Positions 11,125 to 42,582 of a stretch of 54,606 bases of DNA are shown here, one piece after another (positions within the stretch are counted from its first letter, which is position 1; every line of letters begins with the position of its first letter). The stretch spans positions 1 to 54,606 of IMG/VR virus record IMGVR_UViG_3300030107_003944; one strand, given 5' to 3'. The stretch comes from a virus. The notes below the pieces were generated by a model, which saw nothing but the letters and a program-made list of their open reading frames with translations, searched no databases and was not told the DNA's origin. Both the position numbers and the translations under genes were made by a program.

Positions 11125-14100
11125 ATGGCATTAGAAGACCAAACTCCAACCGGGCAGGACCCTGAACAAGACACTCCTGAGAACGAGGAGATTATCCAAT
11201 TCCCCTTGGGGGGCATCGCCGCTACTCTTTTAGGAACGACTCCCAGCGCGACTCGGAGTAATCTTGCCTTGAATCCTCCTCCTTCTGAAGATCCCAAGGA
11301 CTTGCAAGAACAAGCAGAGTATGGGGTCGCGGTTGATTCTCTTGATCCCCAGGACACGAGTACTCCTCCCTCTCCCACTACTTTTGACTTAGAATCTGGA
11401 GGAGATCGGGAAGTAGAGAAGGCTACCTCTCCCGACATCTACTTGGCTTCTTCTTCCCCTCCTGTGGGGTGGACTCCATCTCGGGTAGAGATTGACAGAC
11501 TATTGGAGGAAAAGCTCCTCTCCCCCTATGAAGCGAAAGATCCTCAAAAAGTGTGGGATGCGGGAAGAGCTTCTCAAACAAGGAGAGGAGGAACAGACTG
11601 GGTGGGGAAGAAGGCGGGACAGTATCTTCGTCATCGAGCGGTAAGTGGTGAGTCCTTCATTCAGAATCTAATCCACCAACAAGTTGAAATCGGATCTATC
11701 ACTAAGCAAGTTCGAGAGAAGACTGCGATTGATCCAGACGCAGCTTGGGACTTGGTCTGGAAAGTCCACACCAATAAGCTCCAAGACGAAGATCTCAACC
11801 AGGGCAAGACTCGATCCAAAGAGGATTTTAATCGAGAGGTTGAGCGAAGAACTCAGCGCTCTTTATCCGAGTTTGCGGCGTCTCGAAGCAATATTCTCTG
11901 GATCCATCCGGACACGAATGAACTGATTGATGACATTCAAGATGACTGGCTTCCAATCAAGATGATTCGAGTTCTCGCTAATAGTATCCCCCTCTCTCGT
12001 GTGGGACCTGGAGATATTCCAGACAGTGCAGATGCAAGAGTTCGAGCACACGCCTTTACTTCGGGCCCTCAAGTAAAGGTTGAGGGACTCGCATACAGAA
12101 TCGCCCGGGCTTCCCCCTCTACTTGGCTTGCTCCTAAATGGTTTGGGGGTCACGCAATCGGATCAAGAGAGTGGACTGAGTCCATTCTGGCAGGCGATGA
12201 CATCACTCAACATATCGATGAGATGGGAGAGGCTCTCGGACGATACATTCCGGGAGAAAGGTTTGACCGCGCTGCGGGAGTCATCGCAACCCTGGGTATC
12301 ATCGCATTCGAGCCTGACTTGGGATCTTTTCTCCTCACTGGCCCTGGGTATGCTGCAAAAGGGCTCCGACTCGCGAAGACAAATAGAAAACTTCTCAAAG
12401 CAGCCCAGTTTCTCGATGAGATGTCTACGGTTAATGCCACAGGAGCAAAAAGTCTCGATCAGATCTCAGATGAACTGGAAGCCTTCGATGAGGCCATCTT
12501 CCGAGCGATCGAGATGGAGGCAGCCAGCAACTACCGAACAGTCGGAGGCTTGGAAGGAGCAACTCTCGGAAGTACGGGGGCTGCTTCAAATGTGTATAAG
12601 AAACTGGGGGAGATGAACGTCCTCAAGAGAGAAAGGATCGCAGAAGCTCGAAAGCTTGAGGCACAAGCAGTCACCGAAGAAGGGAAAGCGGCCCTCGCGT
12701 TGAAGAAGCAGCAGATCGCAGAGATCGATTTGGCCCAGGCGTACATTTTACGAGAACACGCCGAGACTCTAAAAAATAACTTCCTCGTGATGCAGGGGAT
12801 GAGTCCTGAAAAAGCGGCAGCTATCGTAAAGAAGAAAGATGCTCCTGTAGTGGGGACTGCTGCCAGGGACACAGATAAGCTCGCTTCTGATCTTGAAAAG
12901 AAAGCAGAGGAGATTCGAAAGGATCCTATCGTCCAGCAAAAGCTTAAAGAATACGATGAGGCTGCCACCGACCTCGCAAGTCTATTTGACCACATGGTTC
13001 AAGGATTTCGTCTCCTCCCCGAAGCTCGAAGGGTAGATGGAAAGCTTCGAAGGGGATGGGACATCCTTTCGACTGAAGGAAAGAGAACAGCAGCGTCTGT
13101 CTCAAGTCGAGCAAAACCGATTCGAGTTCCTACTATTGGATCGAGGATACGAGTTCCTACGGAGACGGGAGGAACCCGGATTGCAGAAGTAGAGCGCATT
13201 CGAATCACAGGTCCTGGAGGAAAGCCCCGACTTGCTCGTGGAAATGAGAACGAGATCATAATCGAGCTTACCGATGGGTCCACGTTTAAACACCCTTTCC
13301 GATTAGATAAGCCGACAGCAAAAAGGCTGAAGACTAAGATCGATAGATTCGACGAGCTTCACGAATTAGTTTCAGCAGAAGGGGGAATCGTCTCCCAGAT
13401 GCTCAAGATGAGAGAGGATGCGGCAGCCGCTCGGAGACTCGCAGAGCAGATTCGAACAGCAGGTCCTCATGCAAAGCGTCTTCAAGCATTCGAAGAAGCA
13501 ACCGAGCGCCTCCGAGAAGCATCAAAAGCGTACAAAGAAGCTTCGAAAGAAGCTGGAGTAGCCGCGAGAAGTCGAGACAAGGCTGTTAAAAAGTGGGTTG
13601 GGCAGAGTGAAGAGGCAGTTCGAGCCGAGATTCACGCTGTAGAGACTGCTCGAATTCGAGAACACTTTGGAGAGGCAATCAAGACTGTTCGAGACGGGCT
13701 TGAGAACTTTCGAGTCGCGGGCCTTACTCGCCTAAAGGCTCACAACATCTACTCCTCTCCTCGAAAGTTTGCTCGTGCTGCTTTGAATCTTAGAAAGCTG
13801 GACGATGAAGCCATCCAATCCTTTGGGATGAAGATTGACGATGAGGCACTTTTCAAGGAATATCAAGAACTTAGAAAGAAGGTCACGTCTGGTCCCGTCA
13901 AACACCCAACAAAGGAAGTAGGGATTGAGTTCGACTCGGCTTCTCTTCTTCGAGAGTTAGAAACTCTCGCTGGAGATCGGAAAGCAGTAAGCGAGTTCCT
14001 CGCCTCCGACCGGGGCAAGAGTCTCAAATGGATCTTTGAGACCGGGGCAAAAACCCCACATGGACGTCTTCTTCTGGATACCGACACTGCTTCCAAAGTG

Positions 14101-17100
14101 CTCTCGGATGTTCGAACATTCCTTCGAGAGGCCAAAGGAAGGGAACTCTATACTGAGAGTGTCGCAGTGGGACGCCTGGTCTATGACGCTTGGGATGATC
14201 TCCAACTGTTTCAGAAAGGAAAGTCCAACCTCAATCGAGGATTCGTCAACACCCTCATCCCCTGGGGCAACTGGAGAAGAGGATTCCGAAACGCAATGTC
14301 GATGGCAAAGCGGAGAGGAGCGAGCTTTGACAATGTCCAAGAGAGAATCGGTAGATACACCAAAGAGGTAGAAGATGCTTTCGTGTCTACGGAGCGCCTC
14401 CTTTCTCGGGGCAGAATGGAACTCATTGAGATCTCTCGAATGGAGGCGCTGGGAGGCACGCCTGCTGAACGGTTCGAAGTCTGGTTGGACAGCTTTGCCG
14501 AGGTCAATCTAAAAGAAGGAAAGCCTCGGTGGAATCTGGCTACTGGGAACGGAAGCCCCTATCAAAAGGGTGCCCAGCAGATGGCTGCCGACTATCGAAC
14601 AGACCCCCGAAGGCTTGAAGATGCTCGGGCGGCGGGTGAAACAAAAGCGATTCAACTGAGGGCCAAGTTGCGCCGACTCATTGAGACTGCTCGGAAGGGG
14701 AGAGGAAAGATCGTAGGAAAGGGAGAAGAAATCACTCTTTCCCCCAAGTTCTTAGATGAGCTTGAGCGTGGCATTGATCAAATTACGGGGGATCTCGTTT
14801 CCCGAGTCACAGAGAGCGCACAATACGGAAAACCATCTCGAACTCTCCAGGCTGTCTCGCGTATGTGGCTTGCTCGGGGTAAGGGACGTCCCATAGCTGT
14901 GACAGAGGATGATGCCATTCTCTTAGCTCTTGCAAGACACTTTCTCGGGAACTCAAACACTTTCGGAAAAGAAGTCAATGCTCTCGGGGAAGTAATAGAT
15001 GAAGGCTTCTCCGCGAAGATGCGAAATCTCACTTTCGCTTTGAGGAGAGAGGTGGACACGAATGTGGATCGAGTAAACGCTCTCGCTTCTTCTGCATTCA
15101 TGGCTTCCGCTTCGATTGGCACCCTGGGCTATAGGCTCCAAAGAGCATCAGGAATCTCAATCAAGGCGAGCGTGGCAGCAGACATCAACCGTATTTTCGA
15201 AGGAAATATGGCAGAGGTGAAGAACCCAGAAGCTGCTTATGATGCCCTCAATCGGATGGGGATGCCCTTCAGTCAAGACAAATGGACAAGCAGTGGGAGA
15301 CAGATAGCGGGGTTCGTCAAAGACGTCTCGGGAGAGCATCGTCGCCTGATCCAGATGGGAACAACGAAGGGAGGAAGCTCGATTGTTCCCCAAAACATGG
15401 TTGAAGCCTTAGAAGCCCGGGCTGAAGACCTCGTCAAAGAGCTTCGAGTTGCCAGTATTCGAGGTGTGGAACCCTTAGCGGCAAGAATGTACGGAGACTA
15501 CCTTGCTGCTTGGCGGGGATCCGCAGTAACTGGATTGATTATTCCCAACCCTCGCTATTGGACCAACAACATTATGGGAGACTTCTCTCAGATGTGGATG
15601 GAAGCGGGCCTGTGGCAAGCATCAAAGCGAAGTTTCTACAACCTCCCTACCAATCTTCCTTTCTTTGGAAGAAGATGGCAGGAAATGAACCTGTACATGG
15701 CAGAACAGGTAGCAGGCAAGTCTGGAAGAGGAGAAGCCCTCCCGGGCATCCTCTCCTCTGCCTTGAACCCTTTTTTGGGAAGAGTGTTCAAAGGAGAAAA
15801 AGGCCACTTCTTCACTAAGAATGGGGAGCCCATTACTTTCGATCAGTTGAGAAGATGGGCCTTAGAAGACGGTATTTCAGAGTCCTTCGTTCGAGAAGAA
15901 CTGATGCAAATGTATGGCCGAACGGCTGACGACTTCAAGAGAATGGGAAGGGAGATGTATGACTGGTGGCAAGGTCAGATTTATGACCATGCCGCCCTCG
16001 TTCAAGAGCGTCAACGAATGGGGTTCTACGCTGACCTCCTCCAGAGAGGATACTCCCGAAAAGAAGCAGCAGAGAGAACGAAGCGGGCTCTCTATGACTG
16101 GTCGCATGGAATCGCAGAGTGGGAAGGGAGGACTCTCTCTCGAATCATTCCTTTCTGGAGATTCTGGCGTCTTGGAATGAAGCAGTTGCACTACTCTTTC
16201 CTCGAACCTTTTGTCTCTCCTTCAGGAGCCTACCTCAAGAAGGCGGCCCTCGGGAATACGAAGTTGGCTCGGATGAGACAGCAGCTTCTTATTTGGCCGT
16301 CTCTTCCTGAGTTCATCTACGAAAATAATGCTCATGCAGGAATGTCTCTTCAAGAGCAGACAGACATGCTCGCCCATCAGATGGGGAAACCCGGGTACTA
16401 CCAGACTCGACCATCCCCTGGAGCGATTCCTTATGACCCGGTTCGACGGGAAGCTTACCTTCGGCGAACAGGGAAGGACATGACACACCGGCAGATTATC
16501 ATGCCGCCTGCAACTGTTCCGGACCTCTTCGATATGGGCACTGGACTTTGGACGGGACTCTTTCTTACCTTGAATAAGTTTAGTCGGGTAAAAGGAATTT
16601 TTCCGGGAGCAGACTCGGATCCAATCTTTGATATTCCAATGCGAGGAGATGTTGGAGCACAGTTCTTTGAGCCCATTCTGGGCGGTCTTGCCCCTGGGTG
16701 GGAAACTATGGCAAGGTCGGTTGCCTCTACATGGGGAGCAGACTTAGATTTTGAGATGAGGTCTTCAGATCGATACTTGAGTCCAGATGAAGAAATGATC
16801 TGGAAGAAGTTCGCCCCTCTACGAGCCCAAATGAAATGGGACAACGACTCAGGAAGGTATAAAGTATCTACCCACATTCACTGGTTGTGGAGATCCGCTC
16901 CGGTCACGGCGACTCAGGTGACGAGTTGGATGGGAGGGATTGCCACTCACAACGAGTACCGAGACCGCTCTCTCTTAGAAACCTGGGCACGAGTTTTCGG
17001 TCGGGTGACGGGAGTCTATCGAGAAGTTCCAATCAATATCTATGAGACTCTGGAGCAACGCCAGCGTGGATTGAAAGAAGAGTTTGACAAGTTTATTCGA

Positions 17101-17238
17101 AGCCATGGTGAATACCTGGGGAATCCATATGAAGGTCCTCGTGATCCGAAGTACATTCCTGCGAATCTACGTCGTCAACAAGAAGAAATCCAAGAAGGTT
17201 TAGACGAGATGGGAAGCGAGAGTCCTCTGGATTACTAA
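11125..17238 (+). CDS. Giant internal virion protein (2037 aa)
   Basis: The longest gene in the window, starting three bases after the previous stop. Layout: a Pro/Asp-rich disordered head (residues 1-110); a long helical, coiled-coil-prone centre (about 430-1000) rich in Ala, Glu, Lys and Arg; and a C-terminal region (about 1450-1960) rich in Trp, Tyr, Phe and Gly. The latter contains NPRYWTNNIMGDFSQMW near 1474-1490 and a W..G...EWEGRTLSRIIPFWRFWR run near 1657-1681. This PRYW-NN-GD plus E-(x)n-PFW layout occurs in large phage virion and polyvalent proteins. No lytic transglycosylase signature was recognised. Likely ejected with the DNA as a channel or tunnel component. Confidence 0.55.
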   Translation: MALEDQTPTGQDPEQDTPENEEIIQFPLGGIAATLLGTTPSATRSNLALNPPPSEDPKDLQEQAEYGVAVDSLDPQDTSTPPSPTTFDLESGGDREVEKATSPDIYLASSSPPVGWTPSRVEIDRLLEEKLLSPYEAKDPQKVWDAGRASQTRRGGTDWVGKKAGQYLRHRAVSGESFIQNLIHQQVEIGSITKQVREKTAIDPDAAWDLVWKVHTNKLQDEDLNQGKTRSKEDFNREVERRTQRSLSEFAASRSNILWIHPDTNELIDDIQDDWLPIKMIRVLANSIPLSRVGPGDIPDSADARVRAHAFTSGPQVKVEGLAYRIARASPSTWLAPKWFGGHAIGSREWTESILAGDDITQHIDEMGEALGRYIPGERFDRAAGVIATLGIIAFEPDLGSFLLTGPGYAAKGLRLAKTNRKLLKAAQFLDEMSTVNATGAKSLDQISDELEAFDEAIFRAIEMEAASNYRTVGGLEGATLGSTGAASNVYKKLGEMNVLKRERIAEARKLEAQAVTEEGKAALALKKQQIAEIDLAQAYILREHAETLKNNFLVMQGMSPEKAAAIVKKKDAPVVGTAARDTDKLASDLEKKAEEIRKDPIVQQKLKEYDEAATDLASLFDHMVQGFRLLPEARRVDGKLRRGWDILSTEGKRTAASVSSRAKPIRVPTIGSRIRVPTETGGTRIAEVERIRITGPGGKPRLARGNENEIIIELTDGSTFKHPFRLDKPTAKRLKTKIDRFDELHELVSAEGGIVSQMLKMREDAAAARRLAEQIRTAGPHAKRLQAFEEATERLREASKAYKEASKEAGVAARSRDKAVKKWVGQSEEAVRAEIHAVETARIREHFGEAIKTVRDGLENFRVAGLTRLKAHNIYSSPRKFARAALNLRKLDDEAIQSFGMKIDDEALFKEYQELRKKVTSGPVKHPTKEVGIEFDSASLLRELETLAGDRKAVSEFLASDRGKSLKWIFETGAKTPHGRLLLDTDTASKVLSDVRTFLREAKGRELYTESVAVGRLVYDAWDDLQLFQKGKSNLNRGFVNTLIPWGNWRRGFRNAMSMAKRRGASFDNVQERIGRYTKEVEDAFVSTERLLSRGRMELIEISRMEALGGTPAERFEVWLDSFAEVNLKEGKPRWNLATGNGSPYQKGAQQMAADYRTDPRRLEDARAAGETKAIQLRAKLRRLIETARKGRGKIVGKGEEITLSPKFLDELERGIDQITGDLVSRVTESAQYGKPSRTLQAVSRMWLARGKGRPIAVTEDDAILLALARHFLGNSNTFGKEVNALGEVIDEGFSAKMRNLTFALRREVDTNVDRVNALASSAFMASASIGTLGYRLQRASGISIKASVAADINRIFEGNMAEVKNPEAAYDALNRMGMPFSQDKWTSSGRQIAGFVKDVSGEHRRLIQMGTTKGGSSIVPQNMVEALEARAEDLVKELRVASIRGVEPLAARMYGDYLAAWRGSAVTGLIIPNPRYWTNNIMGDFSQMWMEAGLWQASKRSFYNLPTNLPFFGRRWQEMNLYMAEQVAGKSGRGEALPGILSSALNPFLGRVFKGEKGHFFTKNGEPITFDQLRRWALEDGISESFVREELMQMYGRTADDFKRMGREMYDWWQGQIYDHAALVQERQRMGFYADLLQRGYSRKEAAERTKRALYDWSHGIAEWEGRTLSRIIPFWRFWRLGMKQLHYSFLEPFVSPSGAYLKKAALGNTKLARMRQQLLIWPSLPEFIYENNAHAGMSLQEQTDMLAHQMGKPGYYQTRPSPGAIPYDPVRREAYLRRTGKDMTHRQIIMPPATVPDLFDMGTGLWTGLFLTLNKFSRVKGIFPGADSDPIFDIPMRGDVGAQFFEPILGGLAPGWETMARSVASTWGADLDFEMRSSDRYLSPDEEMIWKKFAPLRAQMKWDNDSGRYKVSTHIHWLWRSAPVTATQVTSWMGGIATHNEYRDRSLLETWARVFGRVTGVYREVPINIYETLEQRQRGLKEEFDKFIRSHGEYLGNPYEGPRDPKYIPANLRRQQEEIQEGLDEMGSESPLDY

Positions 17239-26842: not shown

Positions 26843-29356
26843 TCAAACCTCACTCCAGCGATTACCGATGTCTGCTCCAGCGGTGTAATCAAGAAGAGGA
26901 TTCACTTTCCTACGTCGGTTCATGGCGTGTTCCAGAACTTCCGCAGCAAACTCAGCTTCTCCTTCGGGCACCTCTAAATAGAGAGCATCATGGCCATGAT
27001 TGATGAGCCACTCCACAGGAAGAGTTTCTCTTGGGGGATTGATCGCTTCTGTCGCAAACCAATCTTGGACCCCATAAATAAGTTCGAGCATCGCTTCATT
27101 CACAATCACCACACCTCCCGACTGGATGGGGTGATTCACAAGCTCATTGATCTTGTCTTCATTTCTAAAGTAGCGGCGACGGTCCCATAGAGAGTCGCCG
27201 ATAAACCCTTCTTTCCGATAGCGAGTTTCAATCATTCGCCACCAACGGGGGATCTCAGGGTCTGCTCTTTTCAGTCCTTCGACGACTTGACGGACGTCCT
27301 CAACCGTAAGGTGAGCGTAGAGGAGGTTTCCGTCGTCATCTTCGACCGAGACGATTTGCTCGTGGATACGTTTAGTAGAGGCGGCATACTGCCAAGCGTA
27401 CCGAGTGTTCTTTGTGATGTCTCGGGTTGCTTTGAAGGTCGCCTTGCCTTTCTCCTTACGATCACTGGGAGCCCCTTCGAGGTTCCAGATTCCTTTGCCA
27501 TATACGATCTCCATTGTTTCATTGTGTGGGTCGAGTCCCTCTCGAATAACTCGAAGGGAGTGTTTTGCTTGTGCCTCTTCTGCGATCAGCCGAAGCTCAA
27601 GTTGATCCATGTCTGCTCCGATGAGAACACACCCCTCCCGGGCAACAAAGATGTCCCGAAGAGAGTAGGGAATGTTCTGGGCATTTGGATTACTTGAGGA
27701 ATATCGGCCAGTTGCGGGGAGTCTGTTGTAGCTGGGATGAATCCGAGTGATCTGCTTTTCAATCAAAGGTCGGATGTAGGTGCCCAGGAGTTTCGTAACT
27801 TTTCGATAGGTTCGAACAGACTGGAGAAACTCTACTCTATCTTTGGACAAGCCATAGTGAACGATCATAGTTCGAAGTGTTTCGTCATCAGTAGAGGGAT
27901 CTCCTGTTTTCTCCGAGTAGTGATGAGGAGCGAGTCCCCATTTAGAGAAAAGAAGGTTTGCCATCTGTCTGGTGCTCTGAGGATTGAAGCCTTCTCCTAC
28001 GATGTCCTGACATCGACGAAGGTGGAGTTTTGATTCCGTATCCAACCTGAGCATGTGTTCAGTGGCTTTCCCTAAATCTACTCCCATCCCAACTCTTTCC
28101 ATCGTAGCGCCCAGGGATTGGAGCATGTGTTCCCGAGGAAGAAGATGCTGCTGTCTTCTCTTCTTCACATCCCGGGCAAGAGGGTTCGCGATTCGAGCCG
28201 TGACACAAACATCTTTTCCACAGTAGATATGAAGTTCTTCATCCGTCTTTGCCTGGACTGCTGTGTGGTCAGCCTTCCAAGCTTCCGGGTTGTCTGTATA
28301 AAATGAACCGACAAAGCCCAGGTTGTGAGGAAGTTCATTGTCCGCGAGGAGATGAAGTAAGATCGTGTCACAAGTAAGCTTTGGAGTGACCCCGAGCCAA
28401 GACTCTACGCAGAGGCGGTCGTACTGGCCTGCATTGTGTCCCAGAAGGAACACTCCAGGAAACTGAAAGAAGATTCTTAAGGCGTTTTCCAGCTCTCGAA
28501 TGATCTCCAAATCGGCTAAATATTCTCCATTGATTCCTCTAATCGCTACAACGAGAGCCTCCTTCTCTGTGCCGAGTCCTACACAACGAATGTTCGCTGT
28601 CATCGGATCAATCCCATCAGTTTCTAAATCGTAGGCGACGAAGTCTTTCTGGGTTCTCCAGCGTCTAAGAAACTCTTGGAGGACCTTGGGGTCTGTGGTT
28701 CTCGTAATCTCAGGCTCGGGCCAGTCTAAGGTCCCAGAAAAGAATCGAAACGCTTTTCTCAAGTCGTGCCGGAAGACTTCCCGGTAGGCTTGCTGGCGAA
28801 GAACCCAAGCGGGGTGCATGGTATACCCGACCTCCAAAGTCACTTCAGGATCCCAAGGGGCTGGCACGAGTTCGCATCCCCCTCGGATGTTCATGATTGA
28901 AACATCTCCCCCCCGGATTGCTTTCGCTGCTGTCTTTCCCAGACAGATGATTCGTTTGATTCCGGTAGCTTTCAGTTCTTCATAGAGAAGAGTCTTACAG
29001 GTATCGAAAGGACGTTGGAGGAGAACAGCCTCACTCTCACTCTCCCGGGCCTTCTTCACTCGCCTCTTGTTGATTCGAGAAACCTGAATGTTCACTGCCT
29101 CCAAATCATTCTTTGGAGGGCGACACCTAACAGTGTTTGCGATGTAACATCTGTCCCGAGGGATATTCAAAGCATTGAGAGCAGACTGGAGTTCCATTCC
29201 ACTCGGTCCAACGAAGGGTCTCCCCTCTACAGTCTCATGCATTCCTGGCGCTTCTCCGAGAATGATCACACGATCATCATCATGAGTTTCAGAGAGCACC
29301 GGGGCAGCGGCCCCGCCCTGACAGAGGGCGCAGTTTTTACAGATTGGATAAAACAT
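26843..29356 (-). CDS. Uracil-DNA glycosylase / family A DNA polymerase fusion
   Basis: An 837-aa fusion. Residues 1-200 are a family 4-like uracil-DNA glycosylase: iron-sulphur Cys candidates C6, C9, C78 and C120, motif GEAPG (34-38), G-PFVG (45-50), and HPAWVLR (181-187). Residues about 235-400 are a 3'-5' exonuclease with YDLETDG (242-248), GHNAGQYDR and YCGKDV. Residues about 415-837 are the polymerase: motif A ADMDQLELRL (581-590), O-helix R645-K649-Y653-Y657, motif C HGHDALYLE (787-795). The O-helix position equal to E. coli F762 is Tyr. It would replicate phage DNA while excising uracil. No clear ribosome-binding site; see the structured leader. Confidence 0.9.
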   Translation of the reverse strand: MFYPICKNCALCQGGAAAPVLSETHDDDRVIILGEAPGMHETVEGRPFVGPSGMELQSALNALNIPRDRCYIANTVRCRPPKNDLEAVNIQVSRINKRRVKKARESESEAVLLQRPFDTCKTLLYEELKATGIKRIICLGKTAAKAIRGGDVSIMNIRGGCELVPAPWDPEVTLEVGYTMHPAWVLRQQAYREVFRHDLRKAFRFFSGTLDWPEPEITRTTDPKVLQEFLRRWRTQKDFVAYDLETDGIDPMTANIRCVGLGTEKEALVVAIRGINGEYLADLEIIRELENALRIFFQFPGVFLLGHNAGQYDRLCVESWLGVTPKLTCDTILLHLLADNELPHNLGFVGSFYTDNPEAWKADHTAVQAKTDEELHIYCGKDVCVTARIANPLARDVKKRRQQHLLPREHMLQSLGATMERVGMGVDLGKATEHMLRLDTESKLHLRRCQDIVGEGFNPQSTRQMANLLFSKWGLAPHHYSEKTGDPSTDDETLRTMIVHYGLSKDRVEFLQSVRTYRKVTKLLGTYIRPLIEKQITRIHPSYNRLPATGRYSSSNPNAQNIPYSLRDIFVAREGCVLIGADMDQLELRLIAEEAQAKHSLRVIREGLDPHNETMEIVYGKGIWNLEGAPSDRKEKGKATFKATRDITKNTRYAWQYAASTKRIHEQIVSVEDDDGNLLYAHLTVEDVRQVVEGLKRADPEIPRWWRMIETRYRKEGFIGDSLWDRRRYFRNEDKINELVNHPIQSGGVVIVNEAMLELIYGVQDWFATEAINPPRETLPVEWLINHGHDALYLEVPEGEAEFAAEVLEHAMNRRRKVNPLLDYTAGADIGNRWSEV

Positions 29357-29516: not shown

Positions 29517-29523
29517 ATAAGAA

Positions 29524-29596
29524 CTGGGGCAGCGGGACTTGAACCTGCAACTTCCTGATTAACAGTCAGGCGTTCTGCCAATTGAACTACACCCCA
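29524..29596 (-). tRNA. tRNA-Asn (anticodon GTT)
   Basis: A complete 73-base cloverleaf on the minus strand. Acceptor TGGGGTG/TGCCCCA; D-stem GTTC/GAAC with an 8-base loop containing GG; anticodon stem CCTGA/TCAGG with loop CTGTTAA giving GTT; T-arm GCAGG-TTCAAGT-CCCGC with one A-C mismatch; discriminator G, as in Asn tRNAs. The CCA end is not encoded (GTTC follows), so it would be added by the host. It lies between the SSB-like gene and the polymerase leader, in their direction of transcription. It would supply Asn decoding during late infection. Confidence 0.93.
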
Positions 29597-29672
29597 AAGA
29601 GTTGAGACATCTGTTTGACCACGGACATGCCTCCCTGCTCCGCCGATTTACCCCAAAAGGGTCAGGTCTAAG

Positions 29673-37214: not shown

Positions 37215-37253
37215 AAAACAAAAAAGCCCCCGAGGAGCGAACTCCCCGAGGGC
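37215..37253 (-). terminator. Rho-independent terminator of the MoxR/VWA operon
   Basis: Minus strand: GCCCTCGGGGAG-TTCG-CTCCTCGGGGGC, a 12-bp stem (with G-U pairs) with a TTCG tetraloop, followed by TTTTTTGTTTT. It ends the operon from 42378 just before the replication-operon promoters. Confidence 0.85.
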
Positions 37254-37259
37254 ATCAAG

Positions 37260-37322
37260 TTAGCTGAAGATGTACCAAAGCATATAGACACTAAGCCAGA
37301 ATGCAAAGGGCACAAAGATCAT
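37260..37322 (-). CDS. Candidate membrane microprotein, 20 aa
   Basis: An ATGA overlap with the stop of the 300-aa gene opens a frame of 20 residues (MIFVPFAFWLSVYMLWYIFS) that is almost wholly hydrophobic. There is no separate Shine-Dalgarno sequence, so translation would depend on coupling. It ends seven bases before the terminator hairpin. Such a short gene could be chance; support comes from the coupling and from two other membrane microproteins at the operon's start. Confidence 0.35.
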   Translation of the reverse strand: MIFVPFAFWLSVYMLWYIFS

Positions 37323-38221
37323 GTCTGATTCATAGCCTGTAGAAGTGCAATAGCAGCCGTCGCTTGTACTTCTTCAACCTTCTCCTTCAAGTCGTCGAAA
37401 GTCTTCCCAAGAATACCGGAATAGGCTTCTACCTTTTCCATGAGATCTTGGGCGCTATCTCTTTTCGTTTTCAAGGCTCTCTTTCCTGGCTTCTTCTCGG
37501 GATCTTCTTCTACAAGAGAAGCCGTCAGTTCAGATAATCGAGTTTCGACTTCCTGGATCAATCCATCACAGACTGCGCTAACGGTGTCTTCATCTCCAGA
37601 AGTCCTCACTTTATAGAAAGTGTGAGAAGGATTGGCCTCTTTCACTACTCGAATGATCTCATCCCACTTGGCTTCCATGTGACTTGGAATCCAATACACT
37701 CCACCTTTCTGGCGGAGAGGAGTTCCGACCATTCTATCTTTGCAGACTTTGACCATCTGAACCCCCAACTGGGCAGCAGTTATCTTTCCCCGCTCCGAAT
37801 AGTAATCCTGAGAGAAGGCTTCAAACTTAGGATGGTTTGGGTCATTACAAAGAAGACCTCCTTTCCCGATGACCTTGACTCGGAGTTCTTCAGCATAAGT
37901 ATTCCGACGATCTCCAGTCAGGTGATCCCTATGCTCTGTTTCAAGAACAATCCCATATCCCAAGTGCCCACTTCCTTTTCCTAACGGTCGAATGATGTAC
38001 TTATGAGAAGGAAAGTTTCGAGTAAGGGCACGCTTCAAAGCATTACCGAGATTCAACTTCTTAGGAAGACAATCCCTAATCCCCAGTTCATCGAATCCAT
38101 CGACTAAAGTTTGGAAGCAAGTTCCTTCTGAAAGTGACCAATAAACGATCACTCCGTTGAACTCGACTTGGACCTCTTCACTCCCGGAAGAGTGGCTATC
38201 AAAATTGAATGCGTTTTGCAT
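37319..38221 (-). CDS. Hypothetical protein of the MoxR/VWA operon, 300 aa
   Basis: Preceded by AACAAAGGAAAAGAA, the same type of ribosome-binding site as the AAA+ gene of this operon. The N-terminal 160 residues are mixed alpha/beta with LPKKLNLGNALKRALTRNFP (53-72) and LRQKGGVYWIPS near 168-179; the last 60 residues are a long helix (KRDSAQDLMEKVEAYSGILG and FDDLKEKVEEVQATAA). It recalls the phage DUF6744-like proteins, but I am unsure of that name. It is the last full-size gene of the operon and may be the substrate adaptor of the ATPase/VWA pair. Confidence 0.6.
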   Translation of the reverse strand: MQNAFNFDSHSSGSEEVQVEFNGVIVYWSLSEGTCFQTLVDGFDELGIRDCLPKKLNLGNALKRALTRNFPSHKYIIRPLGKGSGHLGYGIVLETEHRDHLTGDRRNTYAEELRVKVIGKGGLLCNDPNHPKFEAFSQDYYSERGKITAAQLGVQMVKVCKDRMVGTPLRQKGGVYWIPSHMEAKWDEIIRVVKEANPSHTFYKVRTSGDEDTVSAVCDGLIQEVETRLSELTASLVEEDPEKKPGKRALKTKRDSAQDLMEKVEAYSGILGKTFDDLKEKVEEVQATAAIALLQAMNQT

Positions 38222-38255
38222 TTCTTTTCCTTTGTTAAGTGCGTGATTGCACCGG

Positions 38256-38283
38256 CTAACCTACGGGCGAACCCGTAAGTTAG
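38256..38283 (-). other. TTCG-loop hairpin in the leader of the 300-aa gene
   Basis: Minus strand: CTAACTTACGGG-TTCG-CCCGTAGGTTAG, a 12-bp stem with one T-G pair and a TTCG tetraloop, 35 bases upstream of the ATG at 38221. No T-run. It may stabilise the 5' end of a processed mRNA or set the level of the downstream gene. Confidence 0.65.
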
Positions 38284-38291
38284 AAAGAGAA

Positions 38292-38405
38292 TCATGCTTT
38301 ACTGATTACCTGATAGTGAAGAAAGACTCTCTCAAAGAAAGTCAGTTCATCTATTTCTGCGTACCATCGATCCCAATCGAATGGGATTAGAATCCTACTC
38401 TCCAT
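38292..38405 (-). CDS. Small protein, 37 aa
   Basis: An ATG at 38405 lies inside the end of the VWA gene with GTGGAGGTAGGTG as a strong ribosome-binding site, and the frame reads to a TGA at 38292. The product starts MESRILIPFDWDRWYAEIDE and ends in FFERVFLHYQVISKA, a compact alpha/beta micro-domain with no membrane segment. The ribosome-binding site quality makes it more credible than a chance frame. Function unknown; likely belongs to the MoxR/VWA module. Confidence 0.5.
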   Translation of the reverse strand: MESRILIPFDWDRWYAEIDELTFFERVFLHYQVISKA

Positions 38406-39687
38406 CACCTACCTCCACAACGTGAACCCATTTTGGAAGAAAGTACTTTGTGAACTCCCCAATAAGGCAGACGATTAGCGGGATGCCATTCAAGTCTTCT
38501 TCTCTTGGAAAGTCGAACTCTCCGTCCGTCATCACAACAATACAGTTGGGATCCTCTCGGACTGCTCTATCAAAGAGTGGTCTCATGTCAGTTCCTCCAC
38601 GACCTCGAATCTGAATATCTGAAACATTGTGGACATACTGAGCGAATCGAACTTGAGTGTCTCCAGTCACAACGAATGTCTCAGACGCAGACATCTGAAG
38701 AACAGTTCCTATCTCTTGGAAACAGTCTGTTAGATCCTGATCTGACATTGAACCGGAAGAGTCCACAACAAGAGCAGGAACCAAAGAAGGTTCAAAGTAT
38801 GCAGGGAACACAACATCATTATAGAGAGCAGACATCCTACGGTTTGGTCGAGTGTAGGTAATCGCACTTGCGCCGATTACTTTCTCTTGGGCTTCTCGTA
38901 AGAGTTGAGAGAAGACATCTTGCCAATCTATCTTTGCTTCTCCCGCAACTTCTCCCGACCATTCAATCCACTCCCCGGGCAAAGAGCCAGGATTAGTTTT
39001 AGATGCTTTCTGAATGTCGAGAGCAGTTTCGTACTGAATCTCTTCCATCTCTTCTGAAGTTCTTCCTGGATTAGAATCAGTAGGTGGTCCAAGTTCCCAA
39101 GGACGTTCCCCATCTCCGACAGCATCTCCGTCCTGAAAGTCGGAATCACCAGACGCCTCCTCCTCGGGGCTGGCTTGCTCCTCTTCTTCTGGAATGTCGG
39201 CGTACTTCAAATAGTATTCCATAGTCTCGCCTGTCTCAAGACGAGCCCTTGGATTCTTATGGGAGAAGTGTCGAACTCTTATACATTCTGAGGGCAAGTA
39301 AGTATCGAGATAATACTGACAGTTCAAAGCCATATCGGCTGCGATGTTTACTTTCCTCATACTGATTGGATCTCCGTTCTCATCTCGCATTGAGCGGAAC
39401 CGAGAGAAGTGACACATCAGAGGATGTTGAATCTCATGAAGGATAGAAGCTACAGATTCTGTCTTCTTCTCCTTCTCCGGGCCAACGATAACCCGGAACT
39501 CAACATAGATTCTGTTGTGTTCATCCACACACCAGTTGTTCCCAGATTGATCTCTCAATCCATAGACGGGAACGAACTCGGCACTCATGATTGCTTTGGA
39601 CATTAGAGGATAGACTTGGCATGCGGCAAGTTTGAGAATCTCAATCTCTTTTCTAAACTCTGTGGTTTGTTCTTGTGTAAGGTTCAT
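38395..39687 (-). CDS. VWA-domain protein with HExxH metallopeptidase motif (DUF2201-like)
   Basis: A 430-aa protein coupled to the gene before it by ATGA. Residues 1-160 carry LHEIQH (His84, Glu85, His88), a zinc-peptidase motif, with NIAADMALNCQYYLD (about 114-128) behind it. Residues 165-215 are an acidic linker. The C-terminal VWA domain has MIDAS residues DSSGS (309-313), GGTDMRP (364-370) and TDGE (387-390). This layout matches DUF2201-type VWA proteins, which work with MoxR AAA+ ATPases. Similar phage genes are sometimes labelled CobT-like. It could act as a metal-dependent adaptor or protease in host or virion remodelling. Confidence 0.8.
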   Translation of the reverse strand: MNLTQEQTTEFRKEIEILKLAACQVYPLMSKAIMSAEFVPVYGLRDQSGNNWCVDEHNRIYVEFRVIVGPEKEKKTESVASILHEIQHPLMCHFSRFRSMRDENGDPISMRKVNIAADMALNCQYYLDTYLPSECIRVRHFSHKNPRARLETGETMEYYLKYADIPEEEEQASPEEEASGDSDFQDGDAVGDGERPWELGPPTDSNPGRTSEEMEEIQYETALDIQKASKTNPGSLPGEWIEWSGEVAGEAKIDWQDVFSQLLREAQEKVIGASAITYTRPNRRMSALYNDVVFPAYFEPSLVPALVVDSSGSMSDQDLTDCFQEIGTVLQMSASETFVVTGDTQVRFAQYVHNVSDIQIRGRGGTDMRPLFDRAVREDPNCIVVMTDGEFDFPREEDLNGIPLIVCLIGEFTKYFLPKWVHVVEVGDGE

Positions 39688-40913
39688 GATGTCTCCTCAT
39701 CGTCAAAGACATGGTTGAAGTCAGCGAAAAGATAGAAGTTGTTTCTCTCTTTCTTTTCTTGGGGTGAAAGATAGTTGTTTGGAGCTGGAAGTGTGTTCTT
39801 CAGAGGACCGTAGTTCCTCAAAGAAAGACTTAGGTAAGTAGTTACAAACCTGTGTTGTCCTGAATGAGTTCTTTCCCACCTTCCAACAAGTAGGAAAGAA
39901 GGAAACAAACGTTCTCCGTAGTGGAACTCCCAGAAGCTACGAGGTGGAATCTGAATGGGGAAGTACCCTTTCTCCAGAACTTCTTTCATCCAAACGGAGT
40001 TGTAGAAGTAGTGAACCCACTGTGCAACTTTGGAAGTCTTATAGATCCCGGGAGCTATAGGAGAGATGCTTCTCGTTCCTTGGATTTTGGAGAGGATCTC
40101 CCATCCTTCTTTATGAGAGAAAGAACCAACTCGATAGCTTCTCTTTCGACTTGTCTCAAACCCACACTTCTCAGCTTCTCTAACTAAGAGAGGGTAGAAC
40201 TTCCTGAAGAAATCATCTCCGAGACGTTCCTTCTCCTCAAGCGTACTGCGTACACTTCTTATGAGAAAGCTCGTCCCAAATGTTTTCGACATGAACTCTT
40301 CTACAAACTTGGGACCTCTTCCCATAGAGTCTGTGGCAAAGTCTGCGACTCTCTTTCTCTTGTTTCTCTTCTCACTTACTTGCCGAGCTTTCTTTGCAGC
40401 GGCTCGTAGAGAGAGAGGAATCAAAGCAAGAAAGTCAGAACGAGTGACAGGGTGTTCATTAAGAATATTCTTAAAGCGTTTTCCAGCCTTCTCTGGGAAA
40501 GCATTCATACAATCCAAAGCTTCCGGAATGTTCTTCCAACGTTCTGATTTATTGAAGACCCAGTTGAGTCTTTCTTGGCTCCAGTGAACGTAAACTCTCC
40601 ACGCGGAGAGAACTTCCAAACATCGACACCGAAACTCTGGAGCAAGAACTTTGATTGCTCGAACTTTGTCTAATGAATACTCCGAGCCATGGCGATGGTT
40701 CATAAGAATGAGAGAAGTTTGGACTTGTTCTCTTCTTACGGGAGTGTGTCCAAGAAAGGAACCATTTTCAATTCGTATCCTACGACGGTAGTTTTCTTCC
40801 GGAGTCAGAGAAGAGTATGTCCTCTTCCCAATCCGCTCGGAGACCGCCACAACGTGACGGCCTCCAATGCAGTTTACGTTTGCGACATGCAAAGAAGGAG
40901 ACTTGTTTGACAT
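39684..40913 (-). CDS. Hypothetical basic protein between MoxR and VWA genes, 409 aa
   Basis: GGGGGAAGGACTC precedes the ATG; the stop overlaps the VWA start (ATGA). Its spacing (12 bases after the MoxR-like gene) and overlap place it firmly in one operon. It is Arg/Lys/Phe/Tyr/Trp-rich with basic helices (AAKKARQVSEKRNKRKRVAD near residues 172-191) and ends in a short acidic tail (FDDEETS). The N-terminal part (residues 1-90) is mixed alpha/beta. I do not recognise a family. Possible roles: nucleic-acid binding, or the substrate-selecting partner of the ATPase. Confidence 0.65.
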   Translation of the reverse strand: MSNKSPSLHVANVNCIGGRHVVAVSERIGKRTYSSLTPEENYRRRIRIENGSFLGHTPVRREQVQTSLILMNHRHGSEYSLDKVRAIKVLAPEFRCRCLEVLSAWRVYVHWSQERLNWVFNKSERWKNIPEALDCMNAFPEKAGKRFKNILNEHPVTRSDFLALIPLSLRAAAKKARQVSEKRNKRKRVADFATDSMGRGPKFVEEFMSKTFGTSFLIRSVRSTLEEKERLGDDFFRKFYPLLVREAEKCGFETSRKRSYRVGSFSHKEGWEILSKIQGTRSISPIAPGIYKTSKVAQWVHYFYNSVWMKEVLEKGYFPIQIPPRSFWEFHYGERLFPSFLLVGRWERTHSGQHRFVTTYLSLSLRNYGPLKNTLPAPNNYLSPQEKKERNNFYLFADFNHVFDDEETS

Positions 40914-40925
40914 GAGTCCTTCCCC

Positions 40926-42086
40926 CTACTTCTGGAACTGGCTTAGGATTTGAGAAACACTCGACATCATCGAGGCATAAGCCAAAGCATCTCTTGGAAT
41001 CCCATTCTTGAGAAGATGCTTGTTCCCCTGGAGAAGTCCCGAAAGAGTTTGAGCCGCAAGTGCAGCCGTGTCTTTATTGGGAGCCCGTCCTAAGAGAGAC
41101 CATGCGTTATGGTATTCCGTGAGATCAAGCGTTCCTGAAACCCGGGCAGCTACTCCATTGAAGAAAGCAAACTGCTTGTCTGCTCGCGTAGGAAGATTGA
41201 CTGCATCTGGATTCTGAAGAGCATCGACGACACTCAATCCTTCCATCTGCATTCGAACCCAAGCTCCAAACTCTCTTCCAAGAGCTTCTCCGACATGGCC
41301 TCGGAAAGCTTTCTCTCGAACCTGGATAGAAACAGAAGAGAGTCGCATAACCGTGTCCATCTTGATTAGATTGGACCACGTTCTTGGATTACCCCGAGGC
41401 TTGTTCATAAACTCTCGACTTGGATCCTGAGCAAATCCAGAATGGTTTGCGAATCCCGCAGCTTCTGGAGTTCCTTTCGAATGGAGAAAGGAGATCACGT
41501 CAGCCGCAGCTTCTTGAGTTCCCGGGAACCACTTTCCTTCCATCATATTCTTGGACCAGAAAGCAAAGTCCATCTCCCAATGGATGTGCAGAAACCGAGT
41601 TGCTACTGGAGGAGCCAAGTTAGTTGGATTGACTGCGATCTCAGGCGGATTAGCCAGAGCCACAATATGAATGAGATTCTCGTCGAGTCTCTCATCTCCA
41701 ACGATCTTCTCCGAGATGAAAGAAAGACACGGAGCCATCACAGGTTTGAGCATGGTAGTGAACTCTTCCATGACAAAGACGAACTGTCTTCCTTGAGCGT
41801 TCTCTTCCATTGCTTCTTTGATTGCTCGGAGAACTGGAACCCGAGACCACTCTCCATCATCCCCCCGGGCAAAGAGACCGGCGATGTCTGTTTGTTCCAT
41901 CGAGTTTCCATTCAGGAACCAGTACTTTACTGGAGTTCCATCATCGTTCTTCATTGTCTGAATGAAAGCCTCAATCCCCCGAGACTTTCCGCAGCCGTCC
42001 ATTCCCCAAACGAGAATAGGTTGTGATGGCTTTGTTTCGAAAGCTGCATTGAGCAGCGCGAACGTTTCATGCATTTTACCAAACAT
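40926..42086 (-). CDS. MoxR-type AAA+ ATPase
   Basis: A 386-aa protein. Start at the second ATG of ATGATG (42086), because AAACAAAGGAAGAA is the same ribosome-binding site form as in neighbouring genes and lies 8 bases away; an upstream ATG at 42179 coupled to a microprotein stop is possible. Walker A GMDGCGKS (residues 28-35), a MoxR-like NGNSMEQTDIAGLF (about 60-73), Walker B FVFVMEEF (about 102-109), sensor-like HIVALANPPE, and a VATRF arginine-type motif are visible. MoxR ATPases act as chaperones with VWA partners, here encoded two genes downstream. Often annotated CobS-like in phages. Confidence 0.8.
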   Translation of the reverse strand: MFGKMHETFALLNAAFETKPSQPILVWGMDGCGKSRGIEAFIQTMKNDDGTPVKYWFLNGNSMEQTDIAGLFARGDDGEWSRVPVLRAIKEAMEENAQGRQFVFVMEEFTTMLKPVMAPCLSFISEKIVGDERLDENLIHIVALANPPEIAVNPTNLAPPVATRFLHIHWEMDFAFWSKNMMEGKWFPGTQEAAADVISFLHSKGTPEAAGFANHSGFAQDPSREFMNKPRGNPRTWSNLIKMDTVMRLSSVSIQVREKAFRGHVGEALGREFGAWVRMQMEGLSVVDALQNPDAVNLPTRADKQFAFFNGVAARVSGTLDLTEYHNAWSLLGRAPNKDTAALAAQTLSGLLQGNKHLLKNGIPRDALAYASMMSSVSQILSQFQK

Positions 42087-42175
42087 CATTTCTTCCTTTG
42101 TTTTAGATGTTTCCGAGTCGCAGAATGCTATCGGCAGAAACCCAGGAAGAAGAACTCCCTGAGTTTCGGTCGATG

Positions 42176-42259
42176 TCATCTCCGGACAAAGTAGTGAGCG
42201 CCGAAAGCGGCACAGGGTGGGATGATTAGAAGAACGATTGGAGCAAGCATAAGACTCAT
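42176..42259 (-). CDS. Membrane microprotein, 27 aa
   Basis: Read from ATG 42259, which overlaps the stop of the preceding microprotein (ATGA) and is preceded by AAAGAGGAGACTTTCCA. The product MSLMLAPIVLLIIPPCAAFG continues with HYFVRR, i.e. one hydrophobic helix and a basic end. It also overlaps by ATGA a possible upstream start of the MoxR-like gene, so a chain of coupled genes is set up. Function unknown. Confidence 0.55.
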   Translation of the reverse strand: MSLMLAPIVLLIIPPCAAFGAHYFVRR

Positions 42260-42378
42260 TGGAAAGTCTCCTCTTTTGGAAGCGGCACGGATTGATGTTT
42301 GTCTCGCTCAAGTTCCTCGCCGATAGCCGCGACAACGCAAAGAAGAATGAGAAAGAAAGATAAAGTGATGAATGACAT
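42256..42378 (-). CDS. Membrane microprotein, 40 aa
   Basis: Read from ATG 42378 with CGGGAGATAGTCAC as ribosome-binding site. Residues 2-20 are hydrophobic (SFITLSFFLILLCVVAAIG), then an acidic/basic tail (EELERDKHQSVPLPKEE). First gene of the MoxR/VWA transcription unit, after the terminator at 42531. Its topology is that of small membrane regulators or holin-like antagonists; the genome already has other holin candidates. Confidence 0.6.
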   Translation of the reverse strand: MSFITLSFFLILLCVVAAIGEELERDKHQSVPLPKEETFQ

Positions 42379-42530
42379 GTGACTATCTCCCGATAGTAAG
42401 AGAACGTTCTAATAACTTGCGGTAGCGGCAAGGCTCTCCGGGGCTGGCTCGGAGTTGGCCTTCTTAGGAACGGTAGGAGCTTCTGAACTTGAGAAGTCCA
42501 GACCGAAGAAAGGTTCGAAACTCCAGACGC
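42379..42530 (-). other. Gap between terminator and MoxR/VWA operon
   Basis: About 150 bases without a gene, between a terminator and the first microprotein. A promoter for the MoxR/VWA operon is expected here, but I find only weak candidates (for example TTGCCG, and TTATTA or TACTAT at poor spacing). TGCCGCT words occur here and in the two microprotein genes; I see no array. Confidence 0.4.
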
Positions 42531-42562
42531 AAAAAGGCCCCAAGGCGGAAAACCTCGGGGCC
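42531..42562 (-). terminator. Terminator after the 215-aa gene
   Basis: Minus strand: GGCCCC(G)AGG-loop-CCT(T)GGGGCC, a stem of 9-10 bp, followed by TTTTTGCG. It lies 21 bases after the stop at 42583 and separates the 215-aa gene from the MoxR/VWA unit. Confidence 0.75.
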
Positions 42563-42582
42563 CTAAGTCGAGAAGCTACGGT

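Follow-up and report, generated by a model that had tools for sequence, protein, structure and literature searches.

The window, a virus record of 54,606 bp classed as linear, encodes on its minus strand an operon (42378-37260) whose core is, with high confidence, a MoxR-type remodelling pair. The pair is composed of an AAA+ ATPase and a DUF2201 protein that joins a putative metallopeptidase domain to a VWA-like domain. In one clade of related loci a DUF6744 protein is, to judge from gene neighbourhood, a conserved third partner of the pair.

Eight ORFs make up the operon, which lies between two strong rho-independent terminators, and they follow one another in the order 40 aa, 27 aa, ATPase (417 aa), 409 aa, VWA (430 aa), 37 aa, 300 aa and 20 aa (Table 1). 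A sequence-only reading of the same DNA had described a leftward operon of eight ORFs framed by terminators, and all of the ORFs and both terminators were located accordingly. Its further statement that nearly all genes are coupled by ATGA overlaps was too strong: such overlaps occur at four of the seven junctions (40/27 aa, 27 aa/ATPase, 409 aa/VWA and 300/20 aa), whereas the VWA gene and the 37-aa ORF overlap by 11 nt and gaps of 12 and 70 nt separate the ATPase from the 409-aa ORF and the 37-aa from the 300-aa ORF. Homology backs the ATPase, VWA and 300-aa genes.

Table 1. Features of the operon and its flanking terminators, in the order of transcription
Feature	Position	Strand	Basis
Rho-independent terminator upstream of operon, ending the transcript of a 215-aa gene	42525..42565	-	GGGCCCCGAGG-TTTTCCG-CCTTGGGGCC-TTTTT; 61-nt RNA fold -29.1 kcal/mol
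40-aa ORF, N-terminal hydrophobic helix, ATGA-coupled to 27-aa ORF	42256..42378	-	ORF list; chance of chained ORFs 0.15%
27-aa hydrophobic ORF, ATGA-coupled to ATPase	42176..42259	-	ORF list, shuffle test
MoxR-type AAA+ ATPase (AAA_5, phrog_1297), 417 aa	40926..42179	-	Pfam, PHROG, motif conservation
409-aa basic protein, orphan	39684..40913	-	ORF; no homologue
DUF2201 protein, 430 aa: N-terminal HExxH putative metallopeptidase, acidic linker, C-terminal VWA with MIDAS	38395..39687	-	Pfam, PHROG, motifs
37-aa ORF, 11-nt overlap with VWA stop	38292..38405	-	Weak phrog_37731 match (0.017)
DUF6744 protein, 300 aa	37319..38221	-	PF20529; homologues beside MoxR/VWA
20-aa hydrophobic ORF, ATGA-coupled to DUF6744	37260..37322	-	ORF list; unproven
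Rho-independent terminator closing operon	37226..37253	-	12-bp stem then TTTTTTGTTT; fold -24.1 kcal/mol

The ATPase carries the Walker A and B, sensor 1, arginine finger and sensor 2 elements of the AAA_5 type and matches Pfam PF07728 (AAA_5) above the curated cut-off (7.4e-5) as well as phrog_1297 (5e-23). Among relatives Walker A K65, sensor-1 N177 and R195 are each present in 76/76 and R266 in 74/76. The best PDB chain, CbbQ, is a weak match (E 0.092).

The VWA protein matches PF09967 (1.2e-17) and PF13203 (3.3e-12), both above cut-off in one protein, in addition to phrog_1314 (9.9e-44). Its DUF2201_N (putative metallopeptidase) domain, of the zincin type by its HExxH motif, is separated from the DUF2201 (VWA-like) domain by an acidic linker with 21 D/E in 62 residues. 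The presence of HExxH and MIDAS motifs together, as proposed from the letters alone, is borne out, and both are nearly invariant across 87 loci. The HExxH motif reads HEIQH (residues 84-88), with H84 and E85 each kept in 85/87 and H88 in 87/87. The MIDAS motif consists of D309-x-S-x-S313, T366 and D388; D309, S311, S313 and D388 are each found in 87/87, and the conservation of T366 is partly built in because its GGT motif belonged to the search pattern for most loci. H93 and D118 are also nearly invariant and could be metal ligands. The VWA homologue of RM378 has EExxH instead of HExxH, and peptidase activity may thus be dispensable in some DUF2201 members. To our knowledge no DUF2201 zincin domain is present in the VWA partners of the bacterial RavA-ViaA and CbbQ-CbbO systems. 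Both PHROGs (phrog_1314) and RefSeq (N4 gp25, RM378, LIT1) call the DUF2201 metallopeptidase-VWA family 'HNH endonuclease', a widespread database name for phage VWA proteins that finds no support in their predicted domain content. A search of the literature found no experiment on any phage DUF2201 protein.

The two genes of the pair travel together. A tblastn search with the VWA protein returned 248 phage records, mostly of N4-like-sized genomes of ~70-78 kb, and the ATPase gene is close to the VWA gene in N4 (gp24/gp25), LIT1 (gp33/gp35), RM378, phiTE, Rhizobium phage TM27A and Pag-Yong1. A scan of viral contigs with a VWA-only profile gave 80 loci, and co-occurrence was counted over 87 loci including the window. 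The ATPase is present at 82 of the 87, on the same strand at 80 and within 1 kb at 70; at the other five the VWA gene lies 0-461 bp from a contig end, and these loci are cut there. The sequence-only reading had staked the module on the ATPase and VWA genes co-occurring in related phages and on the HExxH and MIDAS residues being conserved, and the relatives bear out both. The second gene downstream from the VWA gene in Planktothrix phage Pag-Yong1 (L003:7965-9005) carries the annotation anti-CRISPR AcrVA2.

The 300-aa protein matches PF20529 (DUF6744) at 9.3e-10, with 38.4 bits against a curated cut-off of 27, over the C-terminal half of the profile. A profile made from the window's protein detects DUF6744 at 24 of the 86 related VWA loci, the window not counted, where its gene often immediately follows the VWA gene, and the cut-off set by Pfam for DUF6744 is exceeded in 21 of 50 whole records. 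A separate DUF6744 scan of viral contigs, which is not fully independent as its seed alignment was drawn from VWA-linked loci, gave 23 loci, 12 of them new; eight of the new loci carry ATPase and VWA genes, two are cut at an edge, and two are distant and without VWA. In all, DUF6744 stands beside the ATPase/VWA pair on ~33 contigs. On a quick tree of the VWA proteins it is strongly clustered, with 6 changes against 26.7 in shuffles; its carriers form one clade, and the window stands apart on a deep branch of its own (the window's best VWA identity is 30%). Searches with the single DUF6744 sequence gave no matches, and homologues were found only through profiles. Many phages that have the pair are without DUF6744: no match to it was found in the genomes of N4, LIT1, RM378, phiTE, Rhizobium phage TM27A and Pag-Yong1, and a pattern scan of bacterial and archaeal genomes returned none.

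DUF6744 also tracks an SF2 helicase, which is present in 21 of 37 DUF6744 contigs and on the same strand in 20, and because of this the link between DUF6744 and the MoxR pair may be one of shared neighbourhood only, or part of a wider replication cluster. This phrog_16-like helicase (ResIII + Helicase_C; L008:14935-16449, with homologues in 20 other DUF6744 contigs) lies 1.4-7.6 kb from DUF6744, and one distant contig (L109) has DUF6744 and the SF2 helicase with no VWA gene detected. The helicase of the window itself falls outside the phrog_16-like set; it matches phrog_62 for the most part and phrog_16 weakly. Where large neighbours at DUF6744 loci can be named they are mostly DNA-metabolism genes, with 13 helicases among the 91 and one terminase. 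The predicted structure of the DUF6744 protein is confident, with a pLDDT of 88.7; compared with the PDB it gave no match with E below 0.001, and its matches in a viral structure library are uncharacterised proteins. Likenesses to CorA, BAG1 and RRF (Z about 10, in the helical C-terminal half only) fall within common helical arrangements, and no function was drawn from them.

In dinucleotide shuffles, a chain of two ATGA-coupled ORFs, each at least 20 codons long, that leads into the ATPase start arises in only 0.15% of cases, and owing to this rarity the 27- and 40-aa ORFs are probably real genes, even though the 40-, 27- and 37-aa ORFs have no homologue among relatives. The 37- and 20-aa ORFs are unproven as genes. 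None of the microproteins was found in relatives, and they were rejected as conserved parts of the module. The 409-aa ORF is long, has a good ribosome-binding site and shares an ATGA overlap with the VWA gene; its existence is not backed by homology. Its product has no match in Pfam or NCBIfam, a non-significant best PHROG match (0.087), and no homologue in INPHARED, IMG/VR or the related loci, and a single-sequence structure model was not usable (pLDDT 33). As no homologue was found anywhere searched, the 409-aa protein was likewise rejected as a conserved part. The co-conservation of four genes in phages, which the sequence-only reading proposed to look for, holds for the ATPase and VWA genes and, in a subset, for DUF6744, and fails for the 409-aa protein. 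It had also been suggested that the two proteins then without a name may define the substrate; the orphan shows no sign of belonging, and the suggestion survives for the 300-aa protein, co-conserved as it is in one clade.

The operon is situated at the head of a leftward replication arm. Between 24.3 and 43.3 kb ORFs cover 16,588 nt on the minus strand against 659 nt on the plus strand, and the genes of this arm include DNA polymerase A, helicase, exonuclease, Sak4-like and primase genes; structural and packaging genes (terminase, portal, capsid) run rightward on the plus strand. The polymerase ORF (26843-29356, minus strand) joins a family A DNA polymerase to an N-terminal uracil-DNA glycosylase superfamily domain (PF03167, residues 25-191), and a tRNA-Asn (GTT) gene lies in the same arm (29523-29597, minus strand). 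In the structural arm the plus-strand ORF 11125-17238 encodes a protein of 2037 aa without a Pfam match. This is the largest ORF of the window, to be set against the ~3,400-3,600 aa of the giant virion RNA polymerase, and on this count the window is not placed in the Schitoviridae. Its major head protein belongs to phrog_9953, and the MoxR/VWA pair is its one N4-like mark, with the reservation that the contig may be incomplete. At each end of the contig (1-955 and 53645-54605) lies a copy of one major capsid gene, the two being 86% identical in DNA and 92% in protein over 302 aa; these are either capsid paralogues in tandem, or the genome is circular and was closed in assembly across variants from two strains.

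In N4 the corresponding genes, gp24 and gp25, are core genes and middle transcripts (PMC4193335), and gp33 and gp35, their LIT1 counterparts, are both absent from the proteins listed by mass spectrometry of LIT1 virions (PMC3715699). Together with the replication-arm position, these two observations favour, with moderate confidence, a client in replication or host takeover over a part of the virion. The sequence-only reading had left the choice between a host and a virion target open; gene position and N4 middle-gene timing favour a target in replication or host takeover, and the virion is less likely given LIT1 virions without the pair. The LIT1 proteome is compatible with an assembly role as well, since a chaperone that assembles virions need not sit in them.

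The pair itself, correctly recognised from the letters, was already published for N4 gp24/gp25, phage 0305phi8-36, where it was described in 2007 (PMC2147016), and the group 2.2 jumbo phages, for which Iyer et al. 2021 proposed a function in virion assembly (PMC7824862). N4 gp24/gp25, part of the Schitoviridae core, and LIT1 gp33/gp35 share with the window an adjacent ATPase and VWA gene in the same order and strand, the same HMM families, the HExxH and MIDAS motifs and the vicinity of replication genes. They differ in that the window's pair is split by the 409-aa orphan and followed by DUF6744, which N4 and LIT1 lack, and the window's VWA protein is 23% identical to LIT1 gp35. The group 2.2 jumbo phages, likened here by described architecture, have a MoxR ATPase and a vWA cochaperone that carries a metallopeptidase domain at its N-terminus (PMC7824862), whereas in the window, a 54.6-kb contig, the operon belongs to the replication arm and includes DUF6744. 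In the haloarchaeal tailed viruses HVTV-1 and Hardycor1 an AAA gene adjoins a vWA-MIDAS gene in a replication/accessory module (PMC7911831), and HVTV-1 also has a DUF6744 homologue, HVTV1_25 (E 3e-12); however, the archaeal vWA protein fails the DUF2201-type profile and the HVTV-1 DUF6744 gene is ~15 kb from the AAA-vWA pair. Bacterial RavA-ViaA and CbbQ-CbbO likewise combine a MoxR motor with a VWA/MIDAS partner (PMC10585395, PMC4660213). The literature searched holds no report of a link between DUF6744 and MoxR/VWA and does not name DUF6744. The novelty here appears to lie in the DUF6744 subtype, within which the window branches deeply, and in the argument from genomic position.

In known pairs a MoxR ATPase is coupled to a VWA cochaperone that acts on a client (PMC7159879; PMC7824862). 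For the window we lean modestly towards a MoxR chaperone pair acting on an early replication or host-takeover complex, with DUF6744 as the best candidate for adaptor or client. The ATPase would probably be a hexameric motor and the DUF2201 protein, docked to it, probably its cochaperone; the VWA MIDAS would hold the client, the zincin domain would possibly cut it, and ATP hydrolysis would then remodel, mature or dismantle it. Given the operon's place at the head of the replication arm, the most likely client would be a protein complex that serves replication or host takeover and is made early on in infection, and not a virion part, and DUF6744 would be the best candidate adaptor or client in the subtype that carries it. 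A bolder version, which we consider improbable, has the MoxR motor, the DUF2201 zincin-VWA protein and DUF6744 as a three-part machine in which DUF6744, as dedicated client or adaptor, links the motor to the replication helicase encoded nearby, and by which the phage replisome is loaded, matured or dismantled.

A chaperone for virion assembly, with proteolytic processing of structural proteins, is what was proposed for the MoxR and metallopeptidase-vWA pair of group 2.2 jumbo phages (PMC7824862). There is an analogy with p618/p892 of Acidianus two-tailed virus, and roseophage RPP1 encodes several virion proteins near its gp24/gp25 homologues (PMC4193335). Against the arm in which the window's pair lies, the N4 timing, the LIT1 virions and the DNA-metabolism character of nameable DUF6744 neighbours, this explanation is unlikely here. 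A counter-defence or host-takeover machine, in which the motor and the zincin act on a host protein, for instance a defence factor or a replication or transcription protein, by removing or cleaving it, would suit the early/middle position, the small variable companion ORFs, the 409-aa orphan between the pair genes and the patchy partners, and the conflict systems of bacteria commonly include MoxR-vWA pairs (PMC7159879). It is nonetheless doubtful: genes of that kind are usually patchy, whereas the pair belongs to the core genes of all N4-like phages across hosts (PMC4193335), which suggests housekeeping. A chelatase-like role of the CobS/CobT or ChlI/ChlD type, with metal inserted into a metalloenzyme of phage or host, is very improbable, for although an acidic linker followed by a MIDAS VWA domain beside a MoxR/AAA_5 ATPase recalls ChlD and CobT, Pfam assigns DUF2201 and not CobT or ChlD, and the window shows no apparent large catalytic subunit of the CobN/ChlH kind.

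The chaperone pair favoured here matters beyond the window, as N4 gp24/gp25 belong to the core gene set of an entire phage family and the co-conserved third partner offers a concrete candidate client. The replication-arm position argues for a role other than the published virion-assembly proposal, and both the candidate client and this alternative role are approachable in the cultured phages N4, LIT1 and HVTV-1.
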